Virus record (IMG/VR): IMGVR_UViG_3300035701_000037
Coordinates: 1 to 58,402 of that record
Direction: 5' to 3' (one strand)
Length of the DNA stretch: 58,402 bases
Source of the DNA: a virus
The position numbers and the translations under genes are program-made. This document shows positions 6,876 to 38,647 of the stretch, one piece after another; the stretch's first letter is position 1, and each line of letters opens with the position of its first letter. Below the pieces are notes generated by a model. It had not been told where the DNA came from. It worked only from the letters and a program-made list of their open reading frames with translations, and did not search any database.

Positions 6876-7215
6876 CGGAGGACAGATGGGCCAAGTGGCC
6901 ACGATAGCAGGGCGGGACCTCGAGCGAGGGGGCGCGGCCGTTCTATTCTCCCGCGCCCTATTCCTCGAGCGGATAGGGGATGGCGAGCGAACCGCGGAAC
7001 TTGGGACCACGAGGTCGCCGGTTCAAGTCCGGCCGCCCCGACCAGAGTCCCTAAGCACTGATCGGGCCAGCATTTCCCCCGATTCTCCCCTTTTCCGCCT
7101 CCTCACTCGCCTTCCGGCCAGTCGAACGCTCGCATATCCGGCCTATGGAATAGGATTCTATGAGGATCGCGGCAACGAAACGCGCGCAAAGTGCGCACCT
7201 TGGGGAGATGGTGAC
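6876..7215 (+). promoter_or_regulatory. attP flank with repeats (candidate integrase arm sites)
   Basis: A 340-base gap without a supported gene, containing attP. Left of the core the 9-mer cctcgagcg occurs twice (6918 and 6963). An 8-bp inverted repeat gggcgcgg/ccgcgccc (6930-6937, 6951-6958) lies between them. Arm-type sites of tyrosine recombinases are usually short direct repeats flanking the core, so these are candidates. The frame of the integrase is open through this region, but the tRNA-like segment and a better start at 7216 argue against reading it as coding. Confidence 0.4.
7000..7044 (+). other. attP: 3' half of tRNA-Pro(UGG)
   Basis: The sequence matches the 3' half of a bacterial tRNA-Pro: anticodon loop CTTGGGA (7000-7006, anticodon TGG with G37), 3' strand of the anticodon stem ccacg (7007-7011), variable bases aggtc, T stem-loop gccgg-ttcaagt-ccggc (7017-7033), acceptor strand cgccccg (7034-7040), discriminator A and CCA (7042-7044). 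The bases before 7000 (cggaa) do not pair with ccacg, and no cggggcg acceptor strand lies upstream, so this is a half tRNA, not a gene. An integrase follows at 7216. This is the usual layout of an attP that restores the host tRNA after integration. Confidence 0.85.
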
Positions 7216-9610: not shown

Positions 9611-10851
9611 GGATCGCATTTTCGGGCGATTGGCATTTGGGCGCGCAGGGCAGCCGCCTCCATCCCGAGACCGGACTCAATGCGCGGTTAGTGGACCGCG
9701 CGCGTTGCGCGCGCTTTGTCGTCAAAGAGGCGGTGGGGCACGGGGCGGAGATCCTCCTGCATGGCGGCGATGTCTTCGACGGGTGCCGCCCCAGCCCCAG
9801 CGAGGTCCACCTGGCGCGAGATATCATCAGTATGGCGACCAACTCGCGCATCCCGACTCTGCTCCTGCTGGGCAACCATGATGCCCCGCGATCGCCGGCA
9901 GAGAAACACGCGCTCGACCTCGTTGGCGATATGGGGCGGGTCACCATCGTTGATTGGCCCCGCCTGCTCTATTTCCACGAGGTTCAGACTGAGCAGGGAG
10001 ACTCGGCGCTCGAATGCAAGGCGGACCAGGCCGATCTGCAGATTGCTTGTCTCCCTTGGCCTAACAAACAGTTACTGCTGGCCGATGAGGAACACCGGCG
10101 GCTGAGCCCGGGCGATCTCAATCAGGTCGTCTGCGACAAGATGGTGGACATCGCGCGGGGTCTCGCGGCCTCGCGGCTCCCCGGAGTGCCGTCCATTCTG
10201 CTCGGGCATTTCTCCCTCGACATGGCCGAGGCCGGAGGGATGAGCCGGCTCATGGCTCTGGGAGGGGATTGGACGCTCCCGCTGCCGGAGATCCAGGCCT
10301 TGAACTTCGACATGGTATTGCTGGCGCATATCCACAAGCCGCAGGCATGGGGCAGCGACGGCACCGGCGGCCGGCCCGTCATCTACTGCGGCTCGCCCGA
10401 GGCGATGGGATTCGGCGAGGAGGGTGAGGAGAAATCCTTCTGCCTGCTGGAGATCGCGGGCGCGGGAGCGGCGGCCAATGTCGCCTTCGCGCGCGTCCCG
10501 ACTCCTCACACCCGGTTCGTGACGATTGAGATCAAGGCACCGCCAGTCGAACTTTTCACCGAGGAGATCGGAGGCGCATGCATCCGCGTCCGCCTGGCCG
10601 AGGCGATGGCACACGAGGCGGGAGCGATCGCCAAGACACTGCAGGAGGCTGGAGCCAATGAGGTGCGGATCGAAGTGGTGCGCGCGGAAGCCGGCCTGCA
10701 TCGGGCCAGCCAGGTATCTGAGCAGATGGCCGCCGCGGAGGCGATCGAGGCGTGGCTTAAAGAACGGCCGGACCTCGAACCACTGACGGCGGACGTGCTG
10801 GCGGAAGCCCAGGCCGTCGAGACCGCGCTCGGGAAGGGCGGTGGATCATGA
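9607..10851 (+). CDS. SbcD/Mre11-like metallophosphoesterase nuclease subunit
   Basis: 414 residues, GTG start in a GTGA overlap. Calcineurin-like phosphoesterase motifs in order: D8-H10 (GDWHLG), GGDVFD at 53-58, GNHD at 89-92 and AHIHKP near 237. This matches Mre11/SbcD, the Mn-dependent nuclease that processes DNA ends with a Rad50/SbcC ATPase partner. The partner is encoded by the next gene with a four-base overlap. The C-terminal part (270-414) is a capping and partner-binding region. Slightly shorter than typical E. coli-type SbcD in its C-terminal domain order, but complete. Confidence 0.9.
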   Translation: MRIAFSGDWHLGAQGSRLHPETGLNARLVDRARCARFVVKEAVGHGAEILLHGGDVFDGCRPSPSEVHLARDIISMATNSRIPTLLLLGNHDAPRSPAEKHALDLVGDMGRVTIVDWPRLLYFHEVQTEQGDSALECKADQADLQIACLPWPNKQLLLADEEHRRLSPGDLNQVVCDKMVDIARGLAASRLPGVPSILLGHFSLDMAEAGGMSRLMALGGDWTLPLPEIQALNFDMVLLAHIHKPQAWGSDGTGGRPVIYCGSPEAMGFGEEGEEKSFCLLEIAGAGAAANVAFARVPTPHTRFVTIEIKAPPVELFTEEIGGACIRVRLAEAMAHEAGAIAKTLQEAGANEVRIEVVRAEAGLHRASQVSEQMAAAEAIEAWLKERPDLEPLTADVLAEAQAVETALGKGGGS

Positions 10852-13166
10852 CGCCCCGGAGGTTGGTGATCTTCAACTTTCTGAGTTACGAGGGAGACCA
10901 CGCGATCGAGCTTGAGGGCATCAATCTGGCCGTCCTCAGCGGCCAGAACGGGGCGGGCAAATCGAGTTTGATTGATGGGGTGCGGTTTGCGCTGTTCGGA
11001 TACGCGCGAGCCGACCTCGACGGCATGATCACGCAAGGCGAGCAGGCCTGTCGGGTAGAGTTCACCTTCGCCCTGGGCAATGAGATTTACATGGTCTCTC
11101 GCCAGCGGAACCGTAAGGGCGGGGGCACCACCCTACTGTCATTTCAACTCCTCGATCCCGCCGGCGCTATAGTGCTCGATGGGAAGACGGCGACGGAGAC
11201 CCAGGCCAAGATCGAGGGCGTCCTGGGCATGAATGATGAGCTGTTCTGCACCACGGCATGTGCGAACCAGGGGAACGCGGCCGCATTCAGCCAATCGAAG
11301 CCAGCCGAGCGCAAGCAGGTCCTCGCCGAAATCCTGAACCTAGAGGCGTGGGAACGGCGGGCCGAACGTGGCCGCCAGATCCACCGTGATCTGACCAATC
11401 AGACAGAGGCCGGCCGGGCGCGGCTTTCAGAACTGCTCGAGCAAGCGAATCAGATCGAAATCATCGCCGCCGAGATCGCGCGGCTGCTGGCAGACCAGCG
11501 GCAGCGCGAGGAGGCTATCGCCGCAAAGGAATCAGAACTCGCCGAAGCACAGGAGGCGCGGGCGAACATTCTCCGCGACCAAGAAGCCGACCGCGCCCGG
11601 CGGGCCGATCTGGCGGACGTAGAGAAGCGGCTCGCGACTCTCGACAAGGCGATCGCCGAGGCCGAAAGCCGGGCGAAGGGACTGCGGCAGGCCGCCGCCA
11701 GCAAGCCAAAACTCCTCGCGGAGTTGCGCCTGGCCGAAGAAGCGCAGACCGCCGCCCAGGAGATGGAGGCCAAGCGGCAGGAATCGATCGAATTGAAGCA
11801 TGAGGCCGATCTGGCACAGCAGAGATATGATGCCATGGTCCAGCAGCACAGAGTGGCTGTGGCGGCTGCAAACGAACGCATCACGCGGCTGCGGACAATG
11901 CACGAGCATGAGATCAGAGCTGCGGAGGACCGAATTGTGCTCTTGACAAAGCAGGCCGAGGTCCTCGATCGGGTGCCGTGTACGAGACTGCCGGATATAG
12001 GCATAGGCGAGGATGGCGCTGCTGCAGTTGAGGCCATTGCCGACCACTTCATGGAGACGCCGTGCCCGCTACTGGCCCAGGCCCGCACCGCGTCGGAGGA
12101 TCTGCCCGCCCTCAAAAACGACCTGAAGACCCTTCGGGAGCGGCAGTCCTGGGCCCAGGATGAGGCCGATCTCAAGGTGCTGGTCGGCGAACAACCAGGC
12201 GCGAAAGAGAACGCAGCTCTCGCCGAGATCCTCCGCCGGATGAAAGCACTTGGCTATGATTCGCAGGCCCACAATGAACTAAAGGCCAAGGGGGCTGGCG
12301 CTGTGAAGGTGCGGGATGCACTCAGCGGGGCTGAGCGTGCGGAGGCGCAAGCCCTTGAGGTCGAGACCGGCCTGGCCGGCCGGAAGGTCGAGCGGGACGA
12401 TCTCGACGCAACCCGGGGCATCCTGGCGCAAGAGTTGGGCGCACCCCGGCAGTGGGATGCGCTACTGGCGGCGGCCGGCAGGCAAATCGAGGCCGTCCAG
12501 ACGGCCCTCGGCGGGTTCCAGCAATCCCTGCGCATACTCGAGCAGCAGCGCGGCGGGTCGGACTTGCAATTGAGGCAGGCCAAGCGGGCAAAGGAAGACG
12601 CGAAGAAGCTCGCGGACGAGTTGTCCGGATCGGAGCGGCGATTGCTGGCCCTCAAAATCCTGGTCGAGGCTTGCAGCAAAGCCGGAGTGCCAGCATTGCT
12701 CATCGAGCGGGCGGTCCCGGACCTCGAGGCCGCCGCAAATGGGGTCCTGGAGGTGCTCAGCGATGGCCAGATGAGCCTGCGCCTGGAGACCTTGCGCGAG
12801 ACCCAGGAGGGCAGGCTCAAGGAGACACTCGAGCTGATGATCGCCACCCAGCGGGGCGAGCGACCATACGAAAGTTACAGCGGGGGAGAGGCCATGCGCG
12901 TGGACATGGCCATCCGCATCGGGCTTTCGACATTGCTGGCGCACAGGGCAGGGGCGCGCTGCGAGCTGCTGGTTCTCGACGAGACGGCAGCCCCCCTGGA
13001 TGCTGAGGGGCGAGCGCTTTTCGCCGAGGGTCTGCAGCGCATCGCCGGCCGGTTCGGATGCATCCTGGTCGTGACCCACGTGGAGGAATTCAAAGACCTG
13101 TTCCCATGCCGCATCGAGGTCACGAAGGACGAGGCTGGCAGCCACGCGGAGGTAATAGCGGCATGA
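10848..13166 (+). CDS. SbcC/Rad50-like SMC ATPase
   Basis: 772 residues. Walker A GQNGAGKSS (32-40), a long Glu/Arg/Ala coiled-coil middle (about 170-370 and 420-660), ABC signature SGGE (678-681), Walker B ELLVLDE (706-712) and a downstream VVTHVEEF switch. This is the ATPase half of a Mre11-Rad50/SbcCD pair with the gene before it. The hook region lacks a simple CxxC: cysteines at 378 (VPCT) and 406 (TPCP) flank a 27-residue loop. Many SbcC proteins keep a single CxxC here, so the hook is non-canonical. Much shorter coiled coil than cellular SbcC, as is common in phages. Confidence 0.9.
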   Translation: MTPRRLVIFNFLSYEGDHAIELEGINLAVLSGQNGAGKSSLIDGVRFALFGYARADLDGMITQGEQACRVEFTFALGNEIYMVSRQRNRKGGGTTLLSFQLLDPAGAIVLDGKTATETQAKIEGVLGMNDELFCTTACANQGNAAAFSQSKPAERKQVLAEILNLEAWERRAERGRQIHRDLTNQTEAGRARLSELLEQANQIEIIAAEIARLLADQRQREEAIAAKESELAEAQEARANILRDQEADRARRADLADVEKRLATLDKAIAEAESRAKGLRQAAASKPKLLAELRLAEEAQTAAQEMEAKRQESIELKHEADLAQQRYDAMVQQHRVAVAAANERITRLRTMHEHEIRAAEDRIVLLTKQAEVLDRVPCTRLPDIGIGEDGAAAVEAIADHFMETPCPLLAQARTASEDLPALKNDLKTLRERQSWAQDEADLKVLVGEQPGAKENAALAEILRRMKALGYDSQAHNELKAKGAGAVKVRDALSGAERAEAQALEVETGLAGRKVERDDLDATRGILAQELGAPRQWDALLAAAGRQIEAVQTALGGFQQSLRILEQQRGGSDLQLRQAKRAKEDAKKLADELSGSERRLLALKILVEACSKAGVPALLIERAVPDLEAAANGVLEVLSDGQMSLRLETLRETQEGRLKETLELMIATQRGERPYESYSGGEAMRVDMAIRIGLSTLLAHRAGARCELLVLDETAAPLDAEGRALFAEGLQRIAGRFGCILVVTHVEEFKDLFPCRIEVTKDEAGSHAEVIAA

Positions 13167-13745: not shown

Positions 13746-14311
13746 CCAAGCAGGCCTGCTGGTGGATGAGGACCATCGGCTACGACGAGTATGAATGCGA
13801 ACTATCCGGCGTGAGTGTAGATGAGGACTGTGGGGCGAGCGGCGAGGGCACCTGCATACCCAGGATCGCGCTTCACCGGCGGCGCGGGATGCCGACGACC
13901 CCTATCTCAGGGAGGATGATGGAGATGGCAGTTGAGCAGACAGAAGCCAAGATCGCAGAGAAAGTGGAGATCGGCGCGTTGCCGATCGAGGCGGCAGCCG
14001 ATCGAGAGATCGAGGCCCTGGTTGCCAAGGGGCGCGCGGAATTGATAGCCAGGAAACGCTGGCGCCGCAGGGTCCCGATCCTGCAGCGGAAGCGCGATGC
14101 CTTGCTGAGCAAAATCGCGGCGCTAACACAGGACGCGGAGGCGATGAACCAGTCCATCCAGGCCATCAAGGACGGCAAGGGCCTGGCGGCCGGCCCTGGC
14201 CCCCTGCCTGGGCGCCCGGGCGGGAGCATGAGCCCGGAGAGGCGCGCAAAGATCAGCGCCGGGCGCCGCCGCGCCCTGGCGCGCAAGAAACGAGAGGCGA
14301 AAGAACAGTGA
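13742..14311 (+). CDS. unknown helical protein with Cys-rich N-terminus; start uncertain
   Basis: 189 residues if read from GTG 13742; ATG 13766 and ATG 13925 (ggagg nine bases upstream) are alternatives in the same frame. The first 40 residues hold four Cys (CWW, YEC, DEDC, GTC). The part from 13925 is a charged helical coiled coil (RRVPILQRKRDALLSKIAAL) ending in a Gly/Pro linker and a basic RRAKISAGRRRALARKKR tail that could bind DNA. The strong ribosome site at 13911 suggests that at least the shorter form is made. Family unknown. Confidence 0.55.
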   Translation: MTKQACWWMRTIGYDEYECELSGVSVDEDCGASGEGTCIPRIALHRRRGMPTTPISGRMMEMAVEQTEAKIAEKVEIGALPIEAAADREIEALVAKGRAELIARKRWRRRVPILQRKRDALLSKIAALTQDAEAMNQSIQAIKDGKGLAAGPGPLPGRPGGSMSPERRAKISAGRRRALARKKREAKEQ

Positions 14312-14332
14312 CCATTGGCGGGCGGTGGAGTC

Positions 14333-14491
14333 ATGAGTGCGCTTCTCAGGATTGGGAGCGCTTCGCTCAGGAGGCTTTCTCCCCCCTTCGGCCTCCTCCG
14401 GTCCGGCGGGTCCACCACGGCGCGGCAGACGCCAGGCTCTGCCGGCCGGCCCGCCCGCCTTTATCTCACGATTTCAAGGAGGTCTTTATGA
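14333..14491 (+). CDS. possible 52-codon leader ORF upstream of parB-like gene
   Basis: ATG 14333 to TGA 14489-14491, the stop overlapping the ATG of the ParB-like gene (ATGA). Ser/Arg/Leu-rich with no recognised motif. Weak ribosome site (ggtggag) very close to the ATG. The region also contains the inverted repeat aggaggc/gcctcct (14369-14375, 14391-14397). It may be a coupled leader or just an untranslated leader of the next gene. Confidence 0.3.
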   Translation: MSALLRIGSASLRRLSPPFGLLRSGGSTTARQTPGSAGRPARLYLTISRRSL

Positions 14492-16416
14492 GGGCTGCTA
14501 TAGCATCTGATGTGAAGGCTGAGTTTCTTACGCTGCCGCTGGCCGCTCTGCAGGAATCGCCCACGAACCCGAGGAGCCACGTGGACCAGGCGGCGCTCAA
14601 GGAATTGATCGAGAGCATCAAAGCCCAGGGCGTACTCGTCCCTCTGCTGGTGCGGGCCACGGACAGAGTGGGGCTCCAGAAGGACGGCCGCGATGGCCGG
14701 TTGTATGAAGTTGTCTGCGGCTCGCGCCGCCACACCGCTGCAAAGGCGGTGGGACTCGAGGGGGTCCCGGTCCGCGTCTGCAATTTCACCGACGAGCAGG
14801 TGATGGAAGTGCAGATTATCGAGAACCTGCAGCGGCAGGACGTCCACCCGCTCGACGAAGCCCAGGGCTACTTGCGCCTGATGAAAAGCGGCCGGTACGA
14901 TGCGACCGGCCTGGCGGCGAAGGTCGGGCGATCGGAGACCTACATCCATCGGCGTCTGAAACTCTGTGCGCTGATCGAGCCGGCGCAGAAGGCGCTCTGG
15001 GCAGATAAGATCAATGTCGCCCAGGCCGAGTTGATCGCCCGGTTGCAGGCCGGCGATCAGAAGAAGGTCCTCGACTTCGCGACCACGCGGACCAACTGCA
15101 CCACTGCGGTACTGGAGCAATGGATTGCCTCGAATGTGCTCCTGCGCCTGCGCGAGGCGCCGTTTGACAAGGCGGATGGCGGCTCCCCCGGTGCGAAGCC
15201 CGGGGCGTGCAACGAATGTCCGAAAAGAACGAGCGCGGCGCCCCTACTTTTCCCCGAGGTGGGGCGCGATGATCGCTGCACCGACCCGGGCTGCTGGCAG
15301 GCGAAGATCGAGGCGCACATCGGCAGGATCACCAGCGAGGACGACGCCGGCAGGCCCAAGGTCCTGCGGCTCTCCGGAGACTACGAGTATGCCAAGCAGA
15401 CGCCGGATGGGGTTCTCGGCAACGATAAGTGGCGGGTAATTTCGCGCAAGGCCGATGCCTGCGAGCACGCCACGAAGGGCATCATCGTCAAGGGCTACAA
15501 CCTGGGCAAGCTGATCACTGTCTGCGCCGAGCCGACCTGCAAGGTTCACCACCGCGGGGGCGGCGGGTATCAGCGCAGCCCGGCGGAACTCGCGGCCGAG
15601 AAGAAACGCAAATTACAGACGCGGATTGACGCGGAGGTGGAGAACCGGATTCGCGCGGCCATCGCCGAGAATGCGGGCGACCGGATGACGGTTCAGCACA
15701 TCCTCCTGTGGGGTCAGAGTATCGCGGCGGGTCTGCCCTACGACGCGGCAAAGCGGTTGTGCGAACGCCACGAACTCAAACCGTTGAAGACGAAATGGGG
15801 TGGCGCCGACCACGGTGGCGCTCTGGCGAACCGGCTGGATGCGTTGCATGAGAAACTGCCGAGCGCCGTGACCGAGATGGCGCTCGCGACGATGAGCGCC
15901 GACCACTTGAGAGAGGCCGCGGCGGAATGGGACATCGAGCCTGCCGAGATCCGCAACGCCGTTACCGCGGAACTGACTCCCAAGCCGAAACCGGAAGCCA
16001 AGGCGAAAGCGAAGTCGAAAAGCAGGGGCTGGGGCGCATCCGCCCCGGAATCTGCCCGGTCACGGCAGCGGACAAAGAAGAAGGCCAAAGCCGAGCCCGC
16101 ATGCGTCAAGTGCGGCTGCACGGAAGCCAATGCCTGCATGGACGTGAGGACTGGGGCGCCCTGTGGTTGGGTGCCGGCAGATCAAATCCCCGAAGGGATG
16201 GAAGGCCCTCTATGTTCGGCCTGCCTGGTGGCGGCGCGAGAGCGAACAAAGCGCGATCGGAAGAAGCCGAAACCGAAGGCGAAACCGACCTGGGAATGGC
16301 CAGCCGGCAAAGCGACCGCCAAGTCCGCCCGCAAGAAAGCGGGAAAGAAACAGGCAGCGCCGGCGCCCGACAATGGCGACAACCGAGGCTCGACAGAGCC
16401 CGGAAAGGAGCGATAG
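14488..16416 (+). CDS. ParB/Srx-domain protein with C-terminal zinc finger
   Basis: 642 residues from ATG 14488, with a textbook aaggagg six bases upstream. N-terminal ParB-like nuclease domain: PNTPRSHVD-type approach, a GVLVPLLVR strand, VCGSRRHTAAKAV and IENLQRQDVHPLDEA (about 20-135). An HTH (AAKVGRSETYIHRRL) follows. A Cys-rich middle (ACNECPKR, CTDPGCW) comes before a Lys-rich linker and a C-terminal zinc site (CVKCGCTEANAC...CGW...CSACL). Phage proteins of this architecture are common but not shown to partition DNA; they may bind DNA or regulate replication. ParB-type CTP binding is possible from the box motif. Confidence 0.8.
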   Translation: MRAAIASDVKAEFLTLPLAALQESPTNPRSHVDQAALKELIESIKAQGVLVPLLVRATDRVGLQKDGRDGRLYEVVCGSRRHTAAKAVGLEGVPVRVCNFTDEQVMEVQIIENLQRQDVHPLDEAQGYLRLMKSGRYDATGLAAKVGRSETYIHRRLKLCALIEPAQKALWADKINVAQAELIARLQAGDQKKVLDFATTRTNCTTAVLEQWIASNVLLRLREAPFDKADGGSPGAKPGACNECPKRTSAAPLLFPEVGRDDRCTDPGCWQAKIEAHIGRITSEDDAGRPKVLRLSGDYEYAKQTPDGVLGNDKWRVISRKADACEHATKGIIVKGYNLGKLITVCAEPTCKVHHRGGGGYQRSPAELAAEKKRKLQTRIDAEVENRIRAAIAENAGDRMTVQHILLWGQSIAAGLPYDAAKRLCERHELKPLKTKWGGADHGGALANRLDALHEKLPSAVTEMALATMSADHLREAAAEWDIEPAEIRNAVTAELTPKPKPEAKAKAKSKSRGWGASAPESARSRQRTKKKAKAEPACVKCGCTEANACMDVRTGAPCGWVPADQIPEGMEGPLCSACLVAARERTKRDRKKPKPKAKPTWEWPAGKATAKSARKKAGKKQAAPAPDNGDNRGSTEPGKER

Positions 16417-18907: not shown

Positions 18908-19147
18908 ATGAGACGAATCGTATCGCCAATCACACCGTTCAAGCCTTACATCGTGCGCCGGCATACCGCGCTCGGCGGCTGCCAGGTGCTGTTTCCACTG
19001 GCGCTGCTGGACAAGTTAGTCTACTCGGCGTTGGGCGTGGCGCTCGCCCGGCTGGACCAGGAACACTGCAGGGGTAACCTGGCTTTCGGCATGGACGAAC
19101 TGATGCGCGAAGTGACCCAGAAACTTGAAAACCTGGAGAAGCGATGA
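18908..19147 (+). CDS. small protein, unknown
   Basis: 79 residues, ATG; the stop overlaps the ATG of the HerA-like gene by four bases. Its middle (LGGCQVLFPLALLDKLVYSALGVALARLDQE) resembles residues 15-45 of the protein at 23491 (DGCSQVLIPLAELNNLVIELV), so the two may share a short domain. Function unknown. Confidence 0.55.
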   Translation: MRRIVSPITPFKPYIVRRHTALGGCQVLFPLALLDKLVYSALGVALARLDQEHCRGNLAFGMDELMREVTQKLENLEKR

Positions 19148-20919
19148 CCCGGATTGAGATCGGCACGTCGGTCGCCAGCGGCAAGGCGGTGATGCTGGAT
19201 CTGCAGACGCTGGTGGCGACGCGGCTGCTCATCCAGGCGAACTCTGGCGGGGGCAAATCATACACGGTCCGGCGGATCGTCGAGCAGGCAGACGGCAAGA
19301 TCCAGATTCTCATCATTGACCCGGAGGGCGAGTTCTCCAGCCTGCGCGAGAAGTTCGCCTATGTGGTGGCCGGCAAGGGCGGCGACGTGGCGACCGAGCC
19401 GCGCATCGCCGCCCTCCTGGCCCAACGGCTACTCGACCTGAGAGCGAATGCGGTGCTCGATCTCTACGAGATGCGGCGCATGGCCGACCGGCGCGAGTTC
19501 GTGAAACTGTTCCTCGACGGGCTGATCAATAGCCCGAAGAACCTCTGGCACCCGGTCCTGGTGGTGATAGACGAATCACACGTGTACTGCCCCGAAGGCA
19601 AAGAATCCGAATCGAGCGATGCCGTCATCAGCCTCTGCCAACGGGGGCGCAAGCGCGGGTTCTGCGCCGTGCTGGCCACCCAGCGGCTTGCCAGTCTGAG
19701 CAAGGACGCGGCTGCGCAGTGCGGGAACGTGCTGATCGGCCCGACGACCCTGGACATTGACTGCAAACGGGCGGTGCAAGCCCTGGGCCTGTCGCGCGAG
19801 AAGCAGGCCGAGATGATCCGCCAGATGATGCGGCTGGATCCGGGGCAGTTTTTCTGCCTCGGTCGCGCCGTCTCGAACGAGATCACTCTCACCAAGATCG
19901 GCGGCGTGCAGACGCACCATCCGGAGGTTGCGATCGCGGGGAAGGTGGCCTTGGGCCCGCCCCCGCCGCCGGAGCGCGTGAAAGCCATGCTCCCGAAGCT
20001 CGGCGACCTGCCGAAAGAAGCCGATGAGGAAGCCGGCAGCGTCGCCGCCTTGCAGAGACGGGTCCGGGAACTGACGCACGAGCTCGCGGGGGCGAAGCGG
20101 GCGCCGGCAGCGCGCACGGCTGATCGAGCGGCGACGGAGGGAGCGCATACGGCCGAGCAGGTCAAACGCGCGGTGGAAGCGGCCCGCCGCGACTACGACC
20201 GGCAATTTATCGCGTTTACGCAACGCGTAAACTTTGACGTGCGGAAGATGCAGACAGCGCTGCGAAAGGTCGCGGAGATCGCCTCCGCAGCGACTGGCAT
20301 TGAATTGCCTGTGGCCGCTGCCACATCGCCCCTCCCCGCGCATCGGGACTTGCCGGCCCTTCGCCCTGCGCCGCTGCCGGCACCTCGGCCGGCCCGCGAA
20401 AAGGAATTGACGAATTTGTCAAATCGTCAATCGGACGATGCAGACCCGGAATCGCTCGGCAAGGGCGCTCTGAAAATGCTCAAAGTCCTGGCGCAGGGCT
20501 CGCCAATCCGGCTGAGCCGCAGCCAACTGGGAACACTGGCGGGCTACACCGCCAGCGGAGGCACGTTCGGAAATTACTTCAGCCAACTGCGCAGGGCCGC
20601 TTTGATCGCGGAAGATGCCCAGGGCGTCTTCGCAACGGAGGAGGGCATCGAGCGGGCGGGCGCGGTTCCGCCCGCGCCGGAGACGCACGAGGAGATCGTG
20701 GCTATGTGGCGCGCCAATCTGCCGGCGGGCCCCATGAAGATGCTGGATATTCTGCTCAAGTGCTGGCCGGATTGGCTGACCAGGGAAGAACTGGGCGGGA
20801 GCTCGGGTTACACCGCCAGCGGCGGGACATTTGGGAACTACCTCTCGATACTACGCCGGAACGGTTTGGTGGAGATCTCCGGCGGTGATCTGCGCGCGGC
20901 AGAGGCATTATTCCCATGA
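19144..20919 (+). CDS. HerA/FtsK-like DNA-pumping ATPase with two C-terminal winged helices
   Basis: 591 residues. Walker A ANSGGGKSYT (32-41), LIIDPEGEFSS (56-66), Walker B LVVIDESHVY (139-148) and an ATQR sensor (LATQRLASLS, about 177), the order of the HerA/DUF87 translocase family. A coiled coil follows (300-400). The C-terminus holds two copies of a winged helix: GYTASGGTFGNYFSQLRR and GYTASGGTFGNYLSILRR. HerA normally works with a nuclease (NurA) or in DNA transfer; here the next genes encode a zinc protein and a RuvC-like resolvase. Substrate and partner unknown. Confidence 0.85.
   Translation: MTRIEIGTSVASGKAVMLDLQTLVATRLLIQANSGGGKSYTVRRIVEQADGKIQILIIDPEGEFSSLREKFAYVVAGKGGDVATEPRIAALLAQRLLDLRANAVLDLYEMRRMADRREFVKLFLDGLINSPKNLWHPVLVVIDESHVYCPEGKESESSDAVISLCQRGRKRGFCAVLATQRLASLSKDAAAQCGNVLIGPTTLDIDCKRAVQALGLSREKQAEMIRQMMRLDPGQFFCLGRAVSNEITLTKIGGVQTHHPEVAIAGKVALGPPPPPERVKAMLPKLGDLPKEADEEAGSVAALQRRVRELTHELAGAKRAPAARTADRAATEGAHTAEQVKRAVEAARRDYDRQFIAFTQRVNFDVRKMQTALRKVAEIASAATGIELPVAAATSPLPAHRDLPALRPAPLPAPRPAREKELTNLSNRQSDDADPESLGKGALKMLKVLAQGSPIRLSRSQLGTLAGYTASGGTFGNYFSQLRRAALIAEDAQGVFATEEGIERAGAVPPAPETHEEIVAMWRANLPAGPMKMLDILLKCWPDWLTREELGGSSGYTASGGTFGNYLSILRRNGLVEISGGDLRAAEALFP
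20214..20232 (+). repeat. inverted repeat GTTTACGC-AAC-GCGTAAAC inside herA-like gene
   Basis: An 8-bp perfect inverted repeat with a 3-base centre, inside coding sequence. Short enough to be chance, but AT-rich for its surroundings and of operator size. Confidence 0.35.
20406..20431 (+). repeat. inverted repeat ATTGACG-N12-CGTCAAT with inner GTCAA half-site
   Basis: Seven-base arms at 20406-20412 and 20425-20431; the centre (aatttgtcaaat) is itself near-palindromic, giving three TTGAC/GTCAA half-sites in 26 bases. It lies in the linker before the winged helices of the HerA-like ATPase. Confidence 0.35.
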
Positions 20920-29017: not shown

Positions 29018-29584
29018 TTGCCGAGGGGGCCGGAAGAGCGGGAGGCGATCAAGCAGAGGCAGGACCGGGCGTGGCATTTGCACACGATCAGGAAGCTGAC
29101 CGTGCCCGAAGTGGGCCGCGTGCTCAACGTCTCGGAGCGGACCATCCTGCGGGATCTGGCCGCGGCGCGGCGGAAGAACCTGGCCGCATTCAGGAAAGAC
29201 GCGAGCAAGGCCGACTGGCTGATGATCAACGCCATGGAAGCCCTCGGCGAATCCAACGCGATTATGCGCCAGGCGTGGACCGATCTGGTCAGTTCGCCGG
29301 AGGGATCGGCAGTGCGCGCCGGCTTCCTCAACGTCTTGCTGCGGGCGCTCGAGCGACGCATCGAGATCCTGCAGTCGCTGGGGCTGCTGGCCAAGGCGCC
29401 GGAAAGGATGTTGATGGGTGACCTCGATATCTCTCAACTCTCGGATTCAGAGCTTGAGGCTCTCCACGCGGGGCTCAAAGCGGAAGAGGAATGTCTTGCT
29501 CTCCCAGCTGGAGCGGGCGATCCGGGACCGGCGGAATCCGGCGGCGTGGATGCAGTCGTGCCTGCAGATCCGAACCAAAGATAG
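29018..29584 (+). CDS. terminase small subunit-like HTH protein
   Basis: 188 residues from TTG 29018 (aaggggg upstream). N-terminal basic HTH: IRKLTVPEVGRVLNVSERTILRDLAAAR (quoted in parts: TVPEVGRVLNVSERTI, about 27-42). A helical oligomerisation region follows, then an acidic tail. Position directly before and overlapping the large terminase gene makes it the DNA-recognition subunit of the packaging motor. The 3' end overlaps the terminase by about 90 bases in another frame. Confidence 0.75.
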   Translation: MPRGPEEREAIKQRQDRAWHLHTIRKLTVPEVGRVLNVSERTILRDLAAARRKNLAAFRKDASKADWLMINAMEALGESNAIMRQAWTDLVSSPEGSAVRAGFLNVLLRALERRIEILQSLGLLAKAPERMLMGDLDISQLSDSELEALHAGLKAEEECLALPAGAGDPGPAESGGVDAVVPADPNQR

Positions 29585-31037
29585 ACGAGCTGTCCAGTTG
29601 GCGCCGAACGCGGTGCAGGTGCAGTATCTCGCCGAGCGCACCAACCGGGATGTGATACTCAAAGCGCGGCAGGTCGGGATCACGACGATCGTCTCCGCCC
29701 TATTCTTCTACGACACGATCACCAGGCCGAACACGGCATCGGTCATCGTCGCCCACGACCGCGAGAGCACGGAGCTCGTATTCCGCATCGTGCAGTTATT
29801 CTGGCGGCGGCTGCCGGACGCAATTCGGGAGAGGGCCGGGCCAACACATTTCGCTAGCCGGCGGGAGTTCTTCTGGCCGGCGATCAACAGCCAGTTCTAC
29901 ATCGGGACGGCGGGGGCTGTGACGTTCGGACGCGGCCAGACAATCAACAACTTGCACTGTTGCGAGTTCGCCTTCTGGCCCAGAGCCGAAGAATCAATGG
30001 CGACCCTGCTGGAGGCCGTGCCGGCGGACGGGCGAGTGGTCATCGAGTCCACGGCCAACGGAGTGGGCAATCATTTCCACACGGTATGGCGGGCGGCCGT
30101 GGACAGGCAGAGTACATTCCGAGCGCACTTCTTCCCCTGGTGGCGCGAGCCAGCATACCGATTGGCGGGCGAGCCACTCGGAGATCTGAGGGCCGATGAG
30201 GCCGCGCTGCGGGCGCAGGGATTCGATGATGACCAGATCCGCTGGCGCCGGACTAAGGAGCGCGAGCTCGGCGAGCGCTTCGTCCAGGAACACCCCGAGG
30301 ACGACGTGACTTGTTTTTTGGCCAGCGGGCGATGTTGCTTCGATGCCCTGGCATTGCGCCAGTTGCTCGGCCACATAGGCTCGGAGCCGCCGCCGCGGCG
30401 TGTGCTCGGACTGGAGAATGGCGCCGGAGCCACCTCGTTCGCGCCGGCGCACTTGCTCCTCTGGGCTTACCCCGAACGCGGGCATCTCTACGCCATCGGA
30501 GCGGACGTGGGCGAAGGACTGGCTGGAGGCGACGCCTCGTGCGCACAGGTGATAGACCGTGAGACCGGAGAACAGGTGGCGGAGCTGCATGGGCGCGTGG
30601 CACCGGATAGGTTCGGGCATTTGCTGGACGTCCTCGGCCGCTATTACGGCATGGCGACCATCGGGGTCGAGCGCAACAACCACGGGCATTCGACGCTCAA
30701 CACGCTGCGCAATGTCTGCCACTACCCCAGGCTCTACTACTACATGCGCTACGACCGCACTGCGCGGAAGAACCAGCCGGTGCTGGGCTGGCCGACCGAC
30801 CAGGCCACGAAGCCGATCCTGGTTGACGACCTGGTGGCGGCGGTGAACGGCGGTCACCTGCGGGTGCATTCGCCCGGGCTGGTGGATGAGTGTCTCACGT
30901 TCATCTCGAAGGACAATGGCGGGCAGGAGGCGCAAGAGGGCAAATACGATGACAGGGTGATGGCTGCGGGGATCGCCTGGCAGGTGCGCAAGCGTGGCGT
31001 CGCACGCGGCACCACCCAGAGGCCGCGAGGTTGGTGA
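29496..31037 (+). CDS. terL: terminase large subunit
   Basis: 513 residues from TTG 29496 (agagga six bases upstream); GTG 29418 is an in-frame alternative adding 26 residues. ATPase: Walker A-like KARQVGITT, acidic Walker B region LHCCEFAFWP, coupling motif ESTANGVGN. Nuclease: ADVGEGLAGGDAS, GVERNNHGHS, and DDRVMAAGIAW near the C-terminus. This packages DNA into the prohead through the portal encoded at 31371. Headful packaging would suit a circularly permuted genome. Confidence 0.9.
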   Translation: MLSQLERAIRDRRNPAAWMQSCLQIRTKDRRAVQLAPNAVQVQYLAERTNRDVILKARQVGITTIVSALFFYDTITRPNTASVIVAHDRESTELVFRIVQLFWRRLPDAIRERAGPTHFASRREFFWPAINSQFYIGTAGAVTFGRGQTINNLHCCEFAFWPRAEESMATLLEAVPADGRVVIESTANGVGNHFHTVWRAAVDRQSTFRAHFFPWWREPAYRLAGEPLGDLRADEAALRAQGFDDDQIRWRRTKERELGERFVQEHPEDDVTCFLASGRCCFDALALRQLLGHIGSEPPPRRVLGLENGAGATSFAPAHLLLWAYPERGHLYAIGADVGEGLAGGDASCAQVIDRETGEQVAELHGRVAPDRFGHLLDVLGRYYGMATIGVERNNHGHSTLNTLRNVCHYPRLYYYMRYDRTARKNQPVLGWPTDQATKPILVDDLVAAVNGGHLRVHSPGLVDECLTFISKDNGGQEAQEGKYDDRVMAAGIAWQVRKRGVARGTTQRPRGW

Positions 31038-31254: not shown

Positions 31255-31337
31255 AACTGAACAACTGAATACTCGCCGGCGTTGCGATGACGAGGCGAGC
31301 CGCTTCAAGCCCACAGAGGGCCGGCGGCTCGCCTTTT
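31255..31337 (+). promoter_or_regulatory. leader RNA A: conserved motif plus alternative stems before portal gene
   Basis: Contains ACAACTGAATA (31261-31271), then ctcgcc (31272-31277) which can pair with ggcgag (31294-31299). The bases 31294-31303 can instead pair with 31324-31333 to form the terminator, so the two stems exclude each other. A 22-base core (31275-31296, starting GCCGGCGTTG and ending GACGAGGC) is repeated with a single change in leader B (35753-35774). This is the architecture of an attenuator, riboswitch or antiterminator RNA; the signal is unknown. No known riboswitch class is recognised. Confidence 0.65.
31293..31337 (+). terminator. intrinsic terminator in leader A
   Basis: aggcgagccgc (31293-31303) pairs perfectly with gcggctcgcct (31324-31334), 20-base loop with its own gccc/gggc hairpin, followed by a TTTT run (31334-31337). 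It lies between a strong promoter and the portal ATG, 33 bases before it. Confidence 0.8.
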
Positions 31338-31370
31338 GTATTGACTGCAGGATCGAAGAAGGAGCCGACT

Positions 31371-32900
31371 ATGGCGATCGATTTCAGGACGTATCCGCCG
31401 GCCGGCCACACAGACAGAGTGGCCGCCTACGGCAAGTTCGAAAAACTCTTCATCGGGGACCACAAGACAGTCTTCAATGTGCAAGTCGGCCCCTATCAGG
31501 CACTGCGCTACATCGTGGCCAATTTCCCGCAAACACTCTCGCGACTTTGCGCCGACATGCTCTTCGGCGAGCAGCCGGACTTCATGGCCGGCCAGCAGGA
31601 GGGACCCGAGCGCGAAAAGGCGCAGGCGGCGCTGGACAGCATGACCCAACTCAACAGCCTCCACGTGGTCAATTACGAATCGGCTCTCTCGAATTCTTTC
31701 CGGGGGGATGCTATCTACAAGGTCTGGTGGGGCGCCCCGGCCGGCGACTTCGGCGTGGAGAGCAAACCGCGCGCAGTCATCCAGGAAGTCCCCGCCGCGA
31801 TCTACTTCCCGGAGGTGGCCGAGGACGACGTGCGGGAGATCCGTCGGGTCACGCTCGCGTGGACAAAGCGCGATCCCAAGATCCCCACCATGCAATACCT
31901 GCGCGTCGAGGAACACGAGCCAGGCACGATAAAGCATCGCTTACTGCTGCTGACTGGCCAATCGCCCGGGCAGGAAGTGCCCCTCAACACGCTCGAGGAA
32001 TACAAGAACCTCCCGACAGAGGAAGAGACCGGCCTGCCGGTTATCCCGGTCGTGCATATCCCGAACTTCCGCTATGGCTCGCGCTTCTGGGGCATCAGCG
32101 ACTACCAGGGTCTCGACGCCCTCTTCGAGGCAATGAACAACCGCCTGTCGCAGATCGAGATCGTACTGGACAAACACGTGGCCCCGAAGATCATCTTGCC
32201 TCCCGGGTTCATCGACGATCAAGGCAAAGTGCGGTTCGACTCGATGGAGGCGGTGGAAATGACGGCGGGAGATATGCCGCCGAGTTACCTCACGTGGGAG
32301 GGACAGCTTACGGCCGCCGGCGCGCAGTACGATCGCCTGCTCGACCTGCTGATGATCACGGCCGAGATCGCGCCATCGTTGTTCGGTCTGGAGAAGTTCG
32401 GGCTGGCGGAGAGTGGCCGTGCATTGCGGCTGCGGTTGCTGCGGACCCTGGCGAAGATCAATCGGAAGCGCCTCTACTACGACCGCGGGCTGGCAGAGGT
32501 ACTGCTGATTGCACAGATGCTGGACGCAGCCAAAGGCGCGGGGGGTTATACGCCGGTGAAACCCAATATCCAGTGGGCGGACGGTCTCCCGGAAGATATC
32601 GTCGAGATGGTGCAGACGGAGGCCCAGCGATTGGCGGCGGGCAATAGCTCGATCGAATCCTCGATTCGGCGTTTGGACGGGCCGGATGCGGTGGAGGCGG
32701 AGATGGATCGGATCGCCGAGGAAGCGGGCCTATTTGGGGCCCTGATGGGCGCGACCGGCGGCCGTGGCGGGAAGGTCGAGCCCCCAGCCGTCCCCGGAGG
32801 CACGAGCGGCCAAGGCGGGCAACAGGGTGGGACGACCGAAACCCCAGGCCAGACCACCGGGGCAGCGGCCGGGGCACAACCAACCGGAGCCACCCAATGA
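31371..32900 (+). CDS. portal protein
   Basis: 509 residues, ATG with aaggag. Portal features of the SPP1 gp6/phage_prot_Gp6 type: a wing and stem region with NFRYGSRFWGISDYQG...LFEAMNNRLSQIEIVLDKH, LFGLEKFGLAESGRALRL (repeated in many portals), and a Gly/Gln/Thr-rich disordered C-terminus from about 470. It follows the terminase and precedes the head morphogenesis gene, the standard order. Twelve copies would form the DNA entry ring. Stop overlaps the next ATG. Confidence 0.9.
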   Translation: MAIDFRTYPPAGHTDRVAAYGKFEKLFIGDHKTVFNVQVGPYQALRYIVANFPQTLSRLCADMLFGEQPDFMAGQQEGPEREKAQAALDSMTQLNSLHVVNYESALSNSFRGDAIYKVWWGAPAGDFGVESKPRAVIQEVPAAIYFPEVAEDDVREIRRVTLAWTKRDPKIPTMQYLRVEEHEPGTIKHRLLLLTGQSPGQEVPLNTLEEYKNLPTEEETGLPVIPVVHIPNFRYGSRFWGISDYQGLDALFEAMNNRLSQIEIVLDKHVAPKIILPPGFIDDQGKVRFDSMEAVEMTAGDMPPSYLTWEGQLTAAGAQYDRLLDLLMITAEIAPSLFGLEKFGLAESGRALRLRLLRTLAKINRKRLYYDRGLAEVLLIAQMLDAAKGAGGYTPVKPNIQWADGLPEDIVEMVQTEAQRLAAGNSSIESSIRRLDGPDAVEAEMDRIAEEAGLFGALMGATGGRGGKVEPPAVPGGTSGQGGQQGGTTETPGQTTGAAAGAQPTGATQ

Positions 32901-33489: not shown

Positions 33490-35655
33490 ATGCCCAAACT
33501 GATATCGGCCAGTCGCGCTCAAGAATTCAGACGGGCCTTCGATGGGCAGATCGGCGACCTGGCGGCGCTCTACCGCAATGCGGCTGCCGATGCACTCGAC
33601 GTGCTCACCAGGGCTGCCTCGACAGTTGCCTCGCGCCAGCGGGCTCTCGCACTCTTGCGGCAGTACGAGACCATGCTCGCGGAAATGAACGATGAGGCCG
33701 CGCTCTGGATTCACCTCAACGTCCCGGAAGCCTATGACGCGGGGGTCACCATTGCCGAGGAGGGGATCGGCAATATCCAGCGCGCCGGAATCAATCTGCG
33801 TCCCGGGCGCCGGCGGGCAGTGGCGCTCCGGGAGCGGGACGTCTTCTCGCGAGTCCACCAGGAGGCGGCCCAAGCGATTGCCGCGGCGATGGTTGACCGC
33901 ATGAGTGCGGCGGTGCTGGAGATCGGCCGGCGCGTGGACGATGTCTTCCGGCAAGAGGGGATGGTGGCGGTGGCGCGGGGGATCGCGGCCGGCAGGGCAC
34001 GGGTCGAGGTTAGCCGCGAGATTAAGGATCGGCTGATCCAGGCCGGGCAACCAGTCTTCCGGGATCGGCTCGGCCGCATCTGGACCCTCGACCGATACTC
34101 GGAGATGGTCGCTCGCACAACTACGCGTGAAGCGATGACCCAGGGGACGATCAATCGGCTGCGCCAGGAGGATATCCTGCTGGCGCGAGTCTCCTCTCAT
34201 CCGTGCGAAGATTTCTGTTGTGCGCCGGGTACGCGAGTGCTAACATCCGCGGGCTGGCATCGCATCGAGACTATTCAGGAGGGCGACCTGGTGATGACGC
34301 ACCAGGGCCGATGGCGCGCCGTGACAACCGTCATGCGGCGGCACTATAAGGGGCCCCTCATTGAGATCGGCGGGCTACGGGTCACGCCAGACCATCGGGT
34401 TTTGACCCGACGGGGATGGATGAAAGCGGGCGCACTACTGGGCCGGGACCAGATCGTGCTCCTTAAGGCCGTTGAGGACCGCGGTCGGCAATGTGCGGGG
34501 GTCTTTGCCCGATGCAATGCGGAGGACCTGATAGCCCAAGGCGCGGAGGTTGGCATCCCGAACACCATCTCTCTCAGCGCGCCGCTTGGCCTTGTGCCAG
34601 CCGCCGCCGTCGATCTCAACGATCAAATTAGCCCCGGGGAAGAAGAAATCAGCCACATACGCCTCGATGGGTTGTTGGAAGATATAGGGGATGCTGCGAC
34701 GGTCGAGTTCGGTTATCACCGCACGCTCGATCGCGGATGGATTTCGGCGGTAGGCCGCCGCGTTGCTCGTGGCCCTTCTGCTTCGGGTGACCGGATTCCG
34801 CGCGAGATTTCTCGCGCGCAATCGTCTGCCTGCCTCGGCATGCCATCGGCTACGATCCGGATGGTTGGGATCAGTGAAGCCCTTGGGGGCAAGGCCTCCG
34901 GTTGGCTTGGCCTTGATGCCATAGCGCGGCAGCCATCTCCGGGACAAGTGGGCATTGTAGGAGCGGCTGCGGCCCAATTCCTGCGCGATGTCAGCAAGAT
35001 TGGCTCCTTCTGCGACGCGGCGGCGGAGAAACTGCTCCAGTGGCTCTCCGAGGCGATCGCTGAACTTCTTTTCGGTCCCGCGCATCCGCAGCTCGCCGAA
35101 GCACTTGGAGGAACATGTCTGGGAGCGACCGCAGGCTTTGATAAGGGAGGGAAAAGAATCGGCAGCCTGGCCGCACACCGGGCAGATGGTCTTCATGCGC
35201 GGAGTATAGACGGTTCTGGCAGTTCGCGCAATAACTACCGCGGCCCCGTCTGGAATCTATCCGTGGCAGGCGATGAGAGCTACGTGGCGGAGGGGATTGT
35301 AGTCCACAACTGCATCTACTTCGAGGGCATGATTGTAAACATCGGCTCGAAGCCTCACCCGGTCTATCCAGACATCTCCGCGATCGGCGGCGGCCCGCCG
35401 TTCCACCCCCAGTGCACTCACGTGTTGGAGCCCTTCGTCGAACGACTGGCATCGCGCGAGGAGCGACAGCAGGGCAAGGCCGCACCGAAGGTGCTGATAC
35501 CGGCAGGCAGGTCGAGAGAGCAGCAATTCGGCCTTCTTCAGCGCCGGTTCACGAAGCAGTTCCCCGATCGAGCGCGAGAGGAAGGCAAGCGATTGCGCAC
35601 CGAGGGTGCGCGGGCTCAGGCGCGGCAAGAGCGGGCGGCGGCGCGGGCGCGGTAA
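33490..35655 (+). CDS. Mu gpF/SPP1 gp7-like head morphogenesis protein, precursor with intein
   Basis: 721 residues precursor. Extein residues 1-243 and 608-721 form the Mu F-like head protein (TTREAMTQGTINRLRQEDI, then HPCEDFC | CIYFEGMIV and CTHVLEP), which helps build the prohead next to the portal. Residues 244-607 are an intein starting at a Cys and ending VVHN before Cys 608. The splice junction is inside the Cys/His-rich zinc-like core (HPC...C, C, CTH), so the protein is probably inactive until spliced. The C-terminus is Arg/Ala-rich. ATG has gagaggcctcg upstream. Confidence 0.85.
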   Translation: MPKLISASRAQEFRRAFDGQIGDLAALYRNAAADALDVLTRAASTVASRQRALALLRQYETMLAEMNDEAALWIHLNVPEAYDAGVTIAEEGIGNIQRAGINLRPGRRRAVALRERDVFSRVHQEAAQAIAAAMVDRMSAAVLEIGRRVDDVFRQEGMVAVARGIAAGRARVEVSREIKDRLIQAGQPVFRDRLGRIWTLDRYSEMVARTTTREAMTQGTINRLRQEDILLARVSSHPCEDFCCAPGTRVLTSAGWHRIETIQEGDLVMTHQGRWRAVTTVMRRHYKGPLIEIGGLRVTPDHRVLTRRGWMKAGALLGRDQIVLLKAVEDRGRQCAGVFARCNAEDLIAQGAEVGIPNTISLSAPLGLVPAAAVDLNDQISPGEEEISHIRLDGLLEDIGDAATVEFGYHRTLDRGWISAVGRRVARGPSASGDRIPREISRAQSSACLGMPSATIRMVGISEALGGKASGWLGLDAIARQPSPGQVGIVGAAAAQFLRDVSKIGSFCDAAAEKLLQWLSEAIAELLFGPAHPQLAEALGGTCLGATAGFDKGGKRIGSLAAHRADGLHARSIDGSGSSRNNYRGPVWNLSVAGDESYVAEGIVVHNCIYFEGMIVNIGSKPHPVYPDISAIGGGPPFHPQCTHVLEPFVERLASREERQQGKAAPKVLIPAGRSREQQFGLLQRRFTKQFPDRAREEGKRLRTEGARAQARQERAAARAR
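34435..35196 (-). CDS. zinc-finger/HTH/Vsr-like (EDxHD) homing endonuclease nested antisense in intein
   Basis: 253 residues. Zinc finger CPVC (5-8) with TCSSKC (C28, C32); HTH-like LADIAQELGRSRSYNAHL (67-84); a basic NUMOD-like linker (110-150); then a PD-(D/E)xK nuclease of the Vsr/DUF559 type: E157 (SAIERAV), D183 (VADFFF), E194 and D196 (VEIDGGGWH), H201 and D210. This is the domain seen with fractured split inteins. ATG is six bases after a TATACT -10 box, so the mRNA is probably leaderless. Codons are in register with the intein codons on the other strand. Its last ten codons overlap the Hint segment LLGRDQIVLL. Confidence 0.88.
   Translation of the reverse strand: MKTICPVCGQAADSFPSLIKACGRSQTCSSKCFGELRMRGTEKKFSDRLGEPLEQFLRRRVAEGANLADIAQELGRSRSYNAHLSRRWLPRYGIKAKPTGGLAPKGFTDPNHPDRSRWHAEAGRRLRARNLARNPVTRSRRATSNAAAYRRNPSAIERAVITELDRRSIPYIFQQPIEAYVADFFFPGANLIVEIDGGGWHKAKRRAERDGVRDANLRALGYQVLRIASGKDPRTLPTAVLNGLKEHDLVPAQ
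35203..35231 (-). promoter_or_regulatory. promoter of antisense endonuclease gene
   Basis: On the minus strand TTGCGC (35231-35226), 17-base spacer, TATACT (35208-35203), then six bases and ATG. Transcription would start at or next to the A of the ATG, giving a leaderless message. It lies within the sense-strand C-terminal intein region. Confidence 0.65.
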
Positions 35656-37663: not shown

Positions 37664-38647
37664 ATGGCGGCGACGCTTATCACGCTGGCGGAGCTCATCG
37701 TAAAGCTCTATGCCGGCCCGTGGGTCGACGCGCTACAGAAGGAGACCTTCCTGCTCGTCCGCCTGGGTGAGCGGGGCAATGTGAAGACCGGCCGAGGCAA
37801 TGGGATCCGTTGGCCCGTTCGATATGCGGGGAACTCGGCAGTGGGATCGTATGGCGAGGGCGACGCGGCCGGCGGCGCTGGCAACCAGTCCGCCAAGGAG
37901 GCATTCCTTGGCTGGAAGTTCCAGAAGGCCGAGATCTCCATCGGCGGGCCTTCCTTGGCAGTCGGCGCGCAGGGCGGGATGGTAGTTGATCCGCTCCGCT
38001 TTGAGTTGGACAACGGCCTGCTGGACATGCGGGCTGCGATCAATACGCAGATCATGGGTGATGGGACGGGCAACAGCGGCAAGGATTTGACCGGCCTGCT
38101 GGCAGCCCTGGCCGACACCGGGACCTACGCGGGACTTGACCGCGGCAGTTACACCTGGTGGAAGGCATATGTCAATGCGAACGGCGGCACGCCGCGCAAC
38201 CTGACTGAAGCGCTGATGCGCGACGTGAAAAAGACAATGGAGAGCAGAGGCGGCACGCTCACGGCGATCTATGCCGGGGCAAACCAGTGGTACGCCTACG
38301 GCGACCTCTTGCGGGCCGAACGGCGGCAACAGGATCCGCAGACCCTGACCGGCGGCTACCAGGCCCTTGACTTCGAGGGGACCCCGCTCATCAAGGTACC
38401 GGGGTACGTCCAGACGAGGATGGAGTTCGTTGACGAGCGGCTGATCGAGTACCACATGCTCCCGGTCACCAGCGAGAACACGGCGATAGCCGGGCTGCGC
38501 ACAGTGGCCGCGGTCCCGGGCATGCCGGGGTTCGGCATCCTGGTGCTTGGCGCAACCAAGGATGCAGCCGACTTCCAGGTGATCCACTACAGCCAACTCG
38601 TGGTGCGCAATCCCTACCGGATGGGCGTGCTGAAGGACCTGGCCTAA
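37664..38647 (+). CDS. major capsid protein (HK97-fold)
   Basis: 327 residues, ATG with aaggagg. Phage capsid features: helical start LAELIVKLYAGPWVDALQ, a glycine-rich E-loop region (GNGIRWPVRYAGNSAVGSYG), DPLRFELDNGLLDMRAAINT and the P-domain end QVIHYSQLVVRNPYRMG. No cleaved delta domain, consistent with a separate scaffold. The region 38514-38570 (PGMPGFGILVLGATKDAA) is copied at 16852-16908 in an early gene. Confidence 0.88.
   Translation: MAATLITLAELIVKLYAGPWVDALQKETFLLVRLGERGNVKTGRGNGIRWPVRYAGNSAVGSYGEGDAAGGAGNQSAKEAFLGWKFQKAEISIGGPSLAVGAQGGMVVDPLRFELDNGLLDMRAAINTQIMGDGTGNSGKDLTGLLAALADTGTYAGLDRGSYTWWKAYVNANGGTPRNLTEALMRDVKKTMESRGGTLTAIYAGANQWYAYGDLLRAERRQQDPQTLTGGYQALDFEGTPLIKVPGYVQTRMEFVDERLIEYHMLPVTSENTAIAGLRTVAAVPGMPGFGILVLGATKDAADFQVIHYSQLVVRNPYRMGVLKDLA
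38514..38570 (+). repeat. 57-bp segment duplicated at 16852-16908
   Basis: 55 of 57 bases match the end of the zinc-finger gene 16695-16928, read in the same frame. The capsid copy is in a typical place for the fold, so it is the likely source. Confidence 0.9.

Follow-up and report, generated by a model that had tools for sequence, protein, structure and literature searches.

An intein in a phage minor head gene with an EDxHD nuclease gene on its antisense strand

A minor head gene with a second coding frame on the opposite strand

The DNA that we analysed, a stretch of 58,402 nucleotides referred to here as the window, is tailed-phage DNA on an IMG/VR contig. Its open reading frame (ORF) at 33490–35655 on the plus strand encodes a minor head protein of 721 amino acids and is flanked by a portal gene (31287–32900) and a major head gene (37664–38647). 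Profile searches matched this ORF to Phage_min_cap2 (PF06152, 3.6e-14) and to the PHROG minor head family phrog_4611 (1.5e-30), and 25 homologues in IMG/VR were 51–74% identical. Elsewhere in the window, integrase, SbcC-like and ParB-like genes (6805–8325, 10848–13163 and 14308–16413) indicate that it probably represents a temperate tailed phage, and the ORFs at 19144–20916 and 29418–31034 both match terminase large subunit families (phrog_2666, 6.5e-17; phrog_2, 2.2e-21).

Table 1 Features of the head gene and of its insert in the window
Feature	Positions	Strand	Evidence
N-extein, minor head protein (Phage_min_cap2/MuF-like)	33490–34215	+	PF06152, phrog_4611, 25 IMG/VR homologues
Intein, 365 aa	34216–35310	+	Hint_2 and intein_Cterm matches; 23 intein-free homologues; intein alignment
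N-terminal Hint half: block A, block B TPDH, ending LLGRDQIVLL	34216–34467	+	phmmer, AF2, Foldseek
Sense-frame filler, the translated complement of the nuclease gene	34468–35196	+	No recognisable domain
Nuclease gene, 253 aa: Cys4 zinc-finger-like N-terminus, HTH, EDxHD/DUF559 catalytic domain	34435–35196	−	
End of N-terminal Hint half (sense) and last nuclease codons (antisense)	34438–34467	both	Read from sequence
C-terminal Hint half, blocks F and G, ending ..WNLSVAGDESYVAEGIVVHN	35197–35310	+	TIGR01443, 3.5e-6
Possible nuclease promoter, TTGCGC-17-TATACT, 6 nt before ATG	35203–35231	−	8/12 matches; inferred
C-extein of head protein and stop codon	35311–35655	+	Alignment with homologues

A sequence-only reading of this DNA had claimed an intein with Hint blocks inside the head gene. 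The middle of the ORF matched Hint_2 (1.3e-8) and the TIGR01443 intein C-terminus, and phmmer aligned the block B motif to the Mtu RecA intein, which bears the claim out. Blocks A, B (TxxH), F and G are all present, and the splice residues are intact, with the Cys1 nucleophile at 34216–34218, His-Asn at the C-terminal end (35305–35310) and Cys+1 at 35311. A comparison with intein-free homologues, proposed in the same reading, defined the exact empty site: 23 of the 25 head-protein relatives fetched from IMG/VR were continuous through the insertion site and lacked precisely this in-frame insert. These homologues have no extra junction cysteine ('..DF-CIYYEN..' or '..DFCR-YYEN..'), so that the intein starts most economically at the first cysteine, 34216, where a family alignment of inteins also places Cys1. 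We therefore rejected 34219, the start given in the earlier reading, in favour of the position one codon upstream.

Structure prediction agreed with this division of the insert. In an AF2 model of the sense intein, built on eight sequences only, the two ends were fairly confident (pLDDT of about 65–90 across most of the N-terminal Hint half) and residues 88–342 of the modelled 373 fell below 50. Foldseek placed inteins at the top of the matches to this model (gp41-1, 2.5e-5; also Mtu RecA). A Pfam search of the sense ORF found no domain beyond Hint and intein, leaving the filler unmatched.

The minus strand of the intein carries a complete gene of 253 codons, as the sequence-only reading had stated. 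Its product matched DUF559 (PF04480, 4.8e-13) as well as HTH profiles, and its best solved structures by sequence were the endonuclease-like 3hrl and the phage endonuclease I-Bth0305I (3r3p, 1.6e-3). The latter was also the top fold match of the AF2 model (mean pLDDT 84.5; E 4e-4), with Vsr lower down. Residues E157, D183, E194, D196, R213 and D214 were invariant among 14 relatives. The protein thus has the catalytic domain of the EDxHD (Vsr-like, DUF559) family together with its conserved acidic residues. Significant profile matches were therefore obtained for both translations, Hint_2 in the sense frame and DUF559 in the antisense frame, and the homologues ran uninterrupted across an exact empty site; none of the three outcomes named in advance as telling against the earlier reading was seen. 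The stop codon of the nuclease, TAG, is the complement of a sense CTA (Leu) codon at 34435–34437, and the overlap claimed between the end of the nuclease and the Hint segment LLGRDQIVLL can be read directly from the DNA. It spans only some ten codons in the window.

The nuclease gene had also been credited with its own promoter and ATG. The gene is complete, but the promoter is weak: its 8 of 12 matching positions were equalled by 25% of shuffles, a level not significant alone, on which we rejected it as a stand-alone signal, and a promoter scan tool reported none. The best promoter match, with a 17-nt spacer, lies 6 nt before the ATG in the window and in the related loci L033 and L034, and 9 nt before it in L032. 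This near-identical placement lends the window site some support, although the agreement may come partly from conservation of the sense strand. A promoter 6 nt before the ATG would mean a nearly leaderless nuclease mRNA. The window has no obvious Shine–Dalgarno site. Many other members have a plausible ribosome-binding site ahead of the nuclease ATG.

Recurrence and movement among phages

The sequence-only reading had called the nested arrangement, to its knowledge, not standard and had suggested a search of phage databases for others. Such searches yielded the nesting in another 24 representative loci; the arrangement is unusual in annotation and in the searchable literature, but it is recurrent rather than a singleton. 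It occurs in phages of Vibrio, Salmonella and E. coli (Guernseyvirinae), Pantoea, Gordonia, Mycobacterium, Klebsiella, Aggregatibacter, Edwardsiella, Idiomarinaceae and Helicobacter, and in IMG/VR contigs, among them L032, L034, L037, L039 and L044. Loci were recovered through alignment queries and tblastn. As a single-protein query, the window nuclease gave no match in direct scans of viral contigs and genome contigs, and neither did A3 in the genome-contig scan or the Gordonia nuclease in the viral-contig scan. A weak tblastn match led to the nesting in Vibrio phages 1.265.O, 1.266.O and 1.082.O.

The insertion site and the nuclease both vary within the group. In two relatives of the window head protein, L024 and L028, the intein lies 35–40 codons further downstream at the cysteine of a conserved 'HPxC' motif, and each intein holds an EDxHD nuclease gene in antisense orientation. 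At a single site of a single gene, Gordonia phages have three distinct intein alleles; the nuclease is EDxHD-like in two of them, and the third has a LAGLIDADG nuclease that matches I-MsoI (3.8e-4) and phage endonucleases. Guernseyvirinae, including Snoke and LSPA1, have an antisense-nuclease intein whose nuclease gene lacks annotation in the records examined. A tblastn search with the Snoke nuclease matched 107 phage records, from Salmonella phages to those of Gordonia, Mycobacterium, Klebsiella, Aggregatibacter and Helicobacter, and 14 loci from this search or its neighbourhood were inspected. Against Pfam this nuclease type gave a weak match (MTES_1575, E 0.095); we kept it in the EDxHD group, to which it appears to belong by alignment and by clustering with Gordonia members that match MTES_1575/DUF559 (3e-4 to 5e-3).

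Some members differ in other respects. The intein at residues 261–602 of the L004 gene, and those of L003, L005, L039 and L044, have Ala in place of Cys as their first residue ('HPN|ACLKGT..', compared with 'HPN|CRST' in the empty allele) and resemble inteins that splice by the Ala1 (class 2, KlbA-like) route. Escherichia phage BEU35 (L065) and Mycobacterium phage Sejanus (L055) have antisense-nuclease inteins in MuF-type or capsid maturation proteins, at sites that differ from both the HPxC site and the window site. In Acinetobacter phage IME285 (L060, 455–1348) a nuclease of the Snoke type, labelled as a hypothetical protein, is convergent with a 714-nt gene. This is possibly another fractured head gene; a C-terminal intein part was looked for at this locus and not found.

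Close relatives with and without the insert gave evidence of movement. When the exteins of the Vibrio phages were joined, they aligned over their full length with sister-phage genes that lack the intein, at 84–92% identity, and the joined Gordonia exteins matched the empty gene of phage Ailee at 96–97%, with the insert missing exactly. In Barsten and SchottB, which belong to different genera, the 825-nt intein is 100% identical, compared with 89% and 85% for the exteins. The corresponding values were 97.4% versus 89% and 79% for Snoke and LSPA1, and 98.4% versus 88% and 81% for two Vibrio phages. Empty sister alleles and identity limited to the intein are what homing of intein and nuclease as one unit predicts. 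Presence and absence of the insert and its transfer as a unit were thus seen in the relatives; for the window copy the available empty homologues are only up to 74% identical. The closest relatives of the window are only 43–46% identical in the nuclease, so that recent mobility is a finding on relatives; the window copy would home in the same way, judging from homology and from the population patterns in these relatives.

Coding constraint on both strands

The sense and nuclease frames share codon boundaries, and the nuclease contains no TTA, CTA or TCA codon, as the sequence-only reading had noted; we counted 0 stops in the sense frame, whereas the two remaining minus frames gave 9 and 6. The same register was found in all open cases. 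In this register a sense stop can arise only through TTA, CTA or TCA in the nuclease, and the choice of register is explained by the fact that the only forbidden nuclease codons have synonyms. All three can be avoided synonymously, which means that both readings can survive.

For the window gene alone, a single GC-rich gene, 2.6 stops would be expected (P0 = 0.07), and their absence is only mildly unexpected. Across the 25 representative loci, however, there were 0 sense stops under the nuclease against 144.7 expected from local codon usage, a joint probability with a log10 of about −76, or −70 when close relatives were left out (22 loci, 130.9 forbidden codons expected). In AT-rich phages each locus would be expected to have 12–15 stops (15 in L004). 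Nucleases with a closed sense frame served as controls and had 9 (L035), 6 (L060) and 5–13 (L038 and L040–L043) sense stops.

Substitutions in the filler pointed to selection on the nuclease frame. Counted by antisense codon positions 1, 2 and 3, they numbered 28, 15 and 66 between Snoke and W5, 65, 56 and 114 between L004 and L039, and 81, 65 and 118 between the window and L033, so that the third position was the most variable. Over the filler, the window and L033 are 46% identical in the nuclease frame and 24% in the sense frame. The nuclease tail of Guernseyvirinae overlies the N-terminal Hint half for 93 codons, and the substitutions there were balanced or reversed (29, 9, 22 and 26, 7, 16), the pattern that constraint on both strands, or dominance of the sense strand, would produce. 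Taken together, frame-specific substitution, stop avoidance in 25 loci and movement of the whole unit support a model in which the two strands would serve two functions. The case for the window rests on homology, on frame-specific substitution and on the 24 further loci, not on its own stop count.

Interpretation, rival readings and known systems

These computations establish the architecture of the locus, its dual coding and the family assignments. We consider it very probable that the locus is a mobile intein in a minor head protein, with a homing nuclease expressed from the antisense strand; splicing, antisense expression and cleavage of the junction are predictions based on homology and on the patterns seen among relatives. 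The plus strand would be translated into a single precursor of 721 residues, in which the two terminal Hint halves of the 365-residue insert would fold together, cut the insert out and ligate the exteins. The middle, roughly 240 residues, would be filler with no role of its own in splicing, and its DNA would serve on the minus strand as the gene for an EDxHD homing endonuclease, with a zinc finger and HTH to recognise DNA and a Vsr-like domain for catalysis. Expressed from that strand, the nuclease would cleave alleles of this head gene that lack the intein, and these would acquire a copy of the intein and the nuclease gene during repair. Counting against this explanation, a filler of this size could hinder splicing, and in the window the nuclease promoter is weak and an obvious Shine–Dalgarno site is lacking.

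We weighed several other readings. The antisense ORF might be a mirror ORF, open by chance from GC-rich codon bias, with the true content being a sense-strand domain; long antisense ORFs do arise in GC-rich genomes, and the low number of stops expected in the window gene is in line with this. The nuclease, however, has DUF559 and EDxHD fold matches while the filler has no sense domain, antisense third positions are the most variable in the filler, and the nesting also occurs in AT-rich phages in which many stops are expected. On the domain matches, the stop counts and the antisense-frame substitution we rejected this artefact, which is now extremely improbable. Slightly less so, yet still very improbable, is a fractured gene, in which the N- and C-terminal halves of the head protein are two separate products that a split intein ligates, the nuclease gene lying between the two coding parts. 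The loci L038 and L040–L043 do look so, having the same intein type and the same antisense nuclease, a broken sense frame and an ATG for the C-terminal part in all five, but the sense frame is continuous in the window and in the 24 other loci. Another way to read the locus is as a nuclease gene inserted in a decaying intein, with the head protein left unspliced or the sense frame open by chance. Free-standing nuclease genes exist, and the same five loci have sense stops; against this stand the absence of stops in 25 loci, the intact splice residues and the nature of the host gene, a virion gene in the head module of phages isolated as plaque formers, and we regard decay as very improbable.

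We give somewhat more weight to the possibility, unlikely as it is, that the antisense nuclease mainly harms co-infecting phages or acts in repair, and that the intein moves by ordinary recombination. The fold is Vsr-like, and a nuclease that cuts rivals lacking the intein would confer a competitive advantage besides homing. The location within an intein, the exact empty sites and the intein-limited identity between genera nevertheless fit homing, and the two roles are not mutually exclusive.

The broken loci connect the nested inteins to fractured genes. The host gene is split into two ORFs in L038 and L040–L043 and is undivided in the window. In 5/5 of the broken loci the ATG of the C-terminal part lies at nuclease coordinate 682–697, in some with a Shine–Dalgarno-like site, and 4/5 have a sigma-70 promoter for the nuclease, matching at 11–12 of 12 positions, within the C-terminal Hint region. 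The broken loci were not monophyletic in a nuclease tree (L040 groups with the open L003 and L035 branches apart, at a node whose support does not exceed 0.8), suggesting at least two transitions. We think it fairly likely that antisense codon-register nuclease inteins are a widespread class of mobile intein that has arisen repeatedly in the head proteins of phages, with nucleases from two or more unrelated families, and that conversion between them and fractured genes with split inteins goes both ways, so that natural split inteins might originate from them.

In textbook mobile inteins the endonuclease is a domain of the same protein as Hint. Like canonical inteins with an in-frame LAGLIDADG or HNH domain (PI-SceI, PI-MtuI type), the window class has Hint halves at the ends and an endonuclease in the middle, inserts exactly at a conserved residue and would spread into empty alleles. 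It differs from them in that the sense frame has no nuclease domain and consists of filler in the middle, the nuclease has a gene of its own on the minus strand, and splicing and homing would reside in two proteins. The split-intein fractured genes with free-standing EDxHD nucleases, in the accessible text of Dassa et al. (2009, NAR 37:2560), share the nuclease family between Hint halves and occur mainly in phages; the sense gene of the window is instead continuous and predicted to splice in cis, and it is L038 and L040–L043 that resemble the fractured genes described there. Antisense homing endonuclease genes occur in nuclear group I introns of Didymium and relatives (PMC9548176), also within a self-splicing element, but an intron splices RNA and has neither a frame to keep open nor dual protein coding. 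I-Bth0305I, an EDxHD nuclease and the best match of the catalytic domain by sequence and fold, comes from a group I intron in a phage rather than from an intein, and its DNA-binding parts are different.

The window holds one stretch of DNA that would be read both ways, for a splicing protein on one strand and a mobility enzyme on the other, and the class is a rare natural, replicated case of long antisense protein-coding overlap. A nuclease freed from the Hint domain could be expressed at a different time. Open and broken versions among close relatives also suggest a path, open to testing, by which continuous inteins could give rise to fractured genes and to split inteins. We found no published description of an antisense endonuclease gene in an intein in the searchable literature, where many subscription papers are missing, an absence that is not proof of novelty. 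An intein of this class has been recognised in the capsid morphogenesis protein of Snoke and other Jerseyvirus phages, and an intein-free relative, K1ind2, noted (PMC6776784, PMC8425127); the accessible text of these papers does not mention the internal antisense nuclease gene. Antisense-nuclease inteins are present, apparently unannotated, in many cultured phages and are therefore directly testable. Intein-bearing head genes of Salmonella phages are labelled 'NAD+--asparagine ADP-ribosyltransferase' in MZ560703, OQ507916 and NC_073183, among others, a name that seems to be an annotation error for the MuF head protein.
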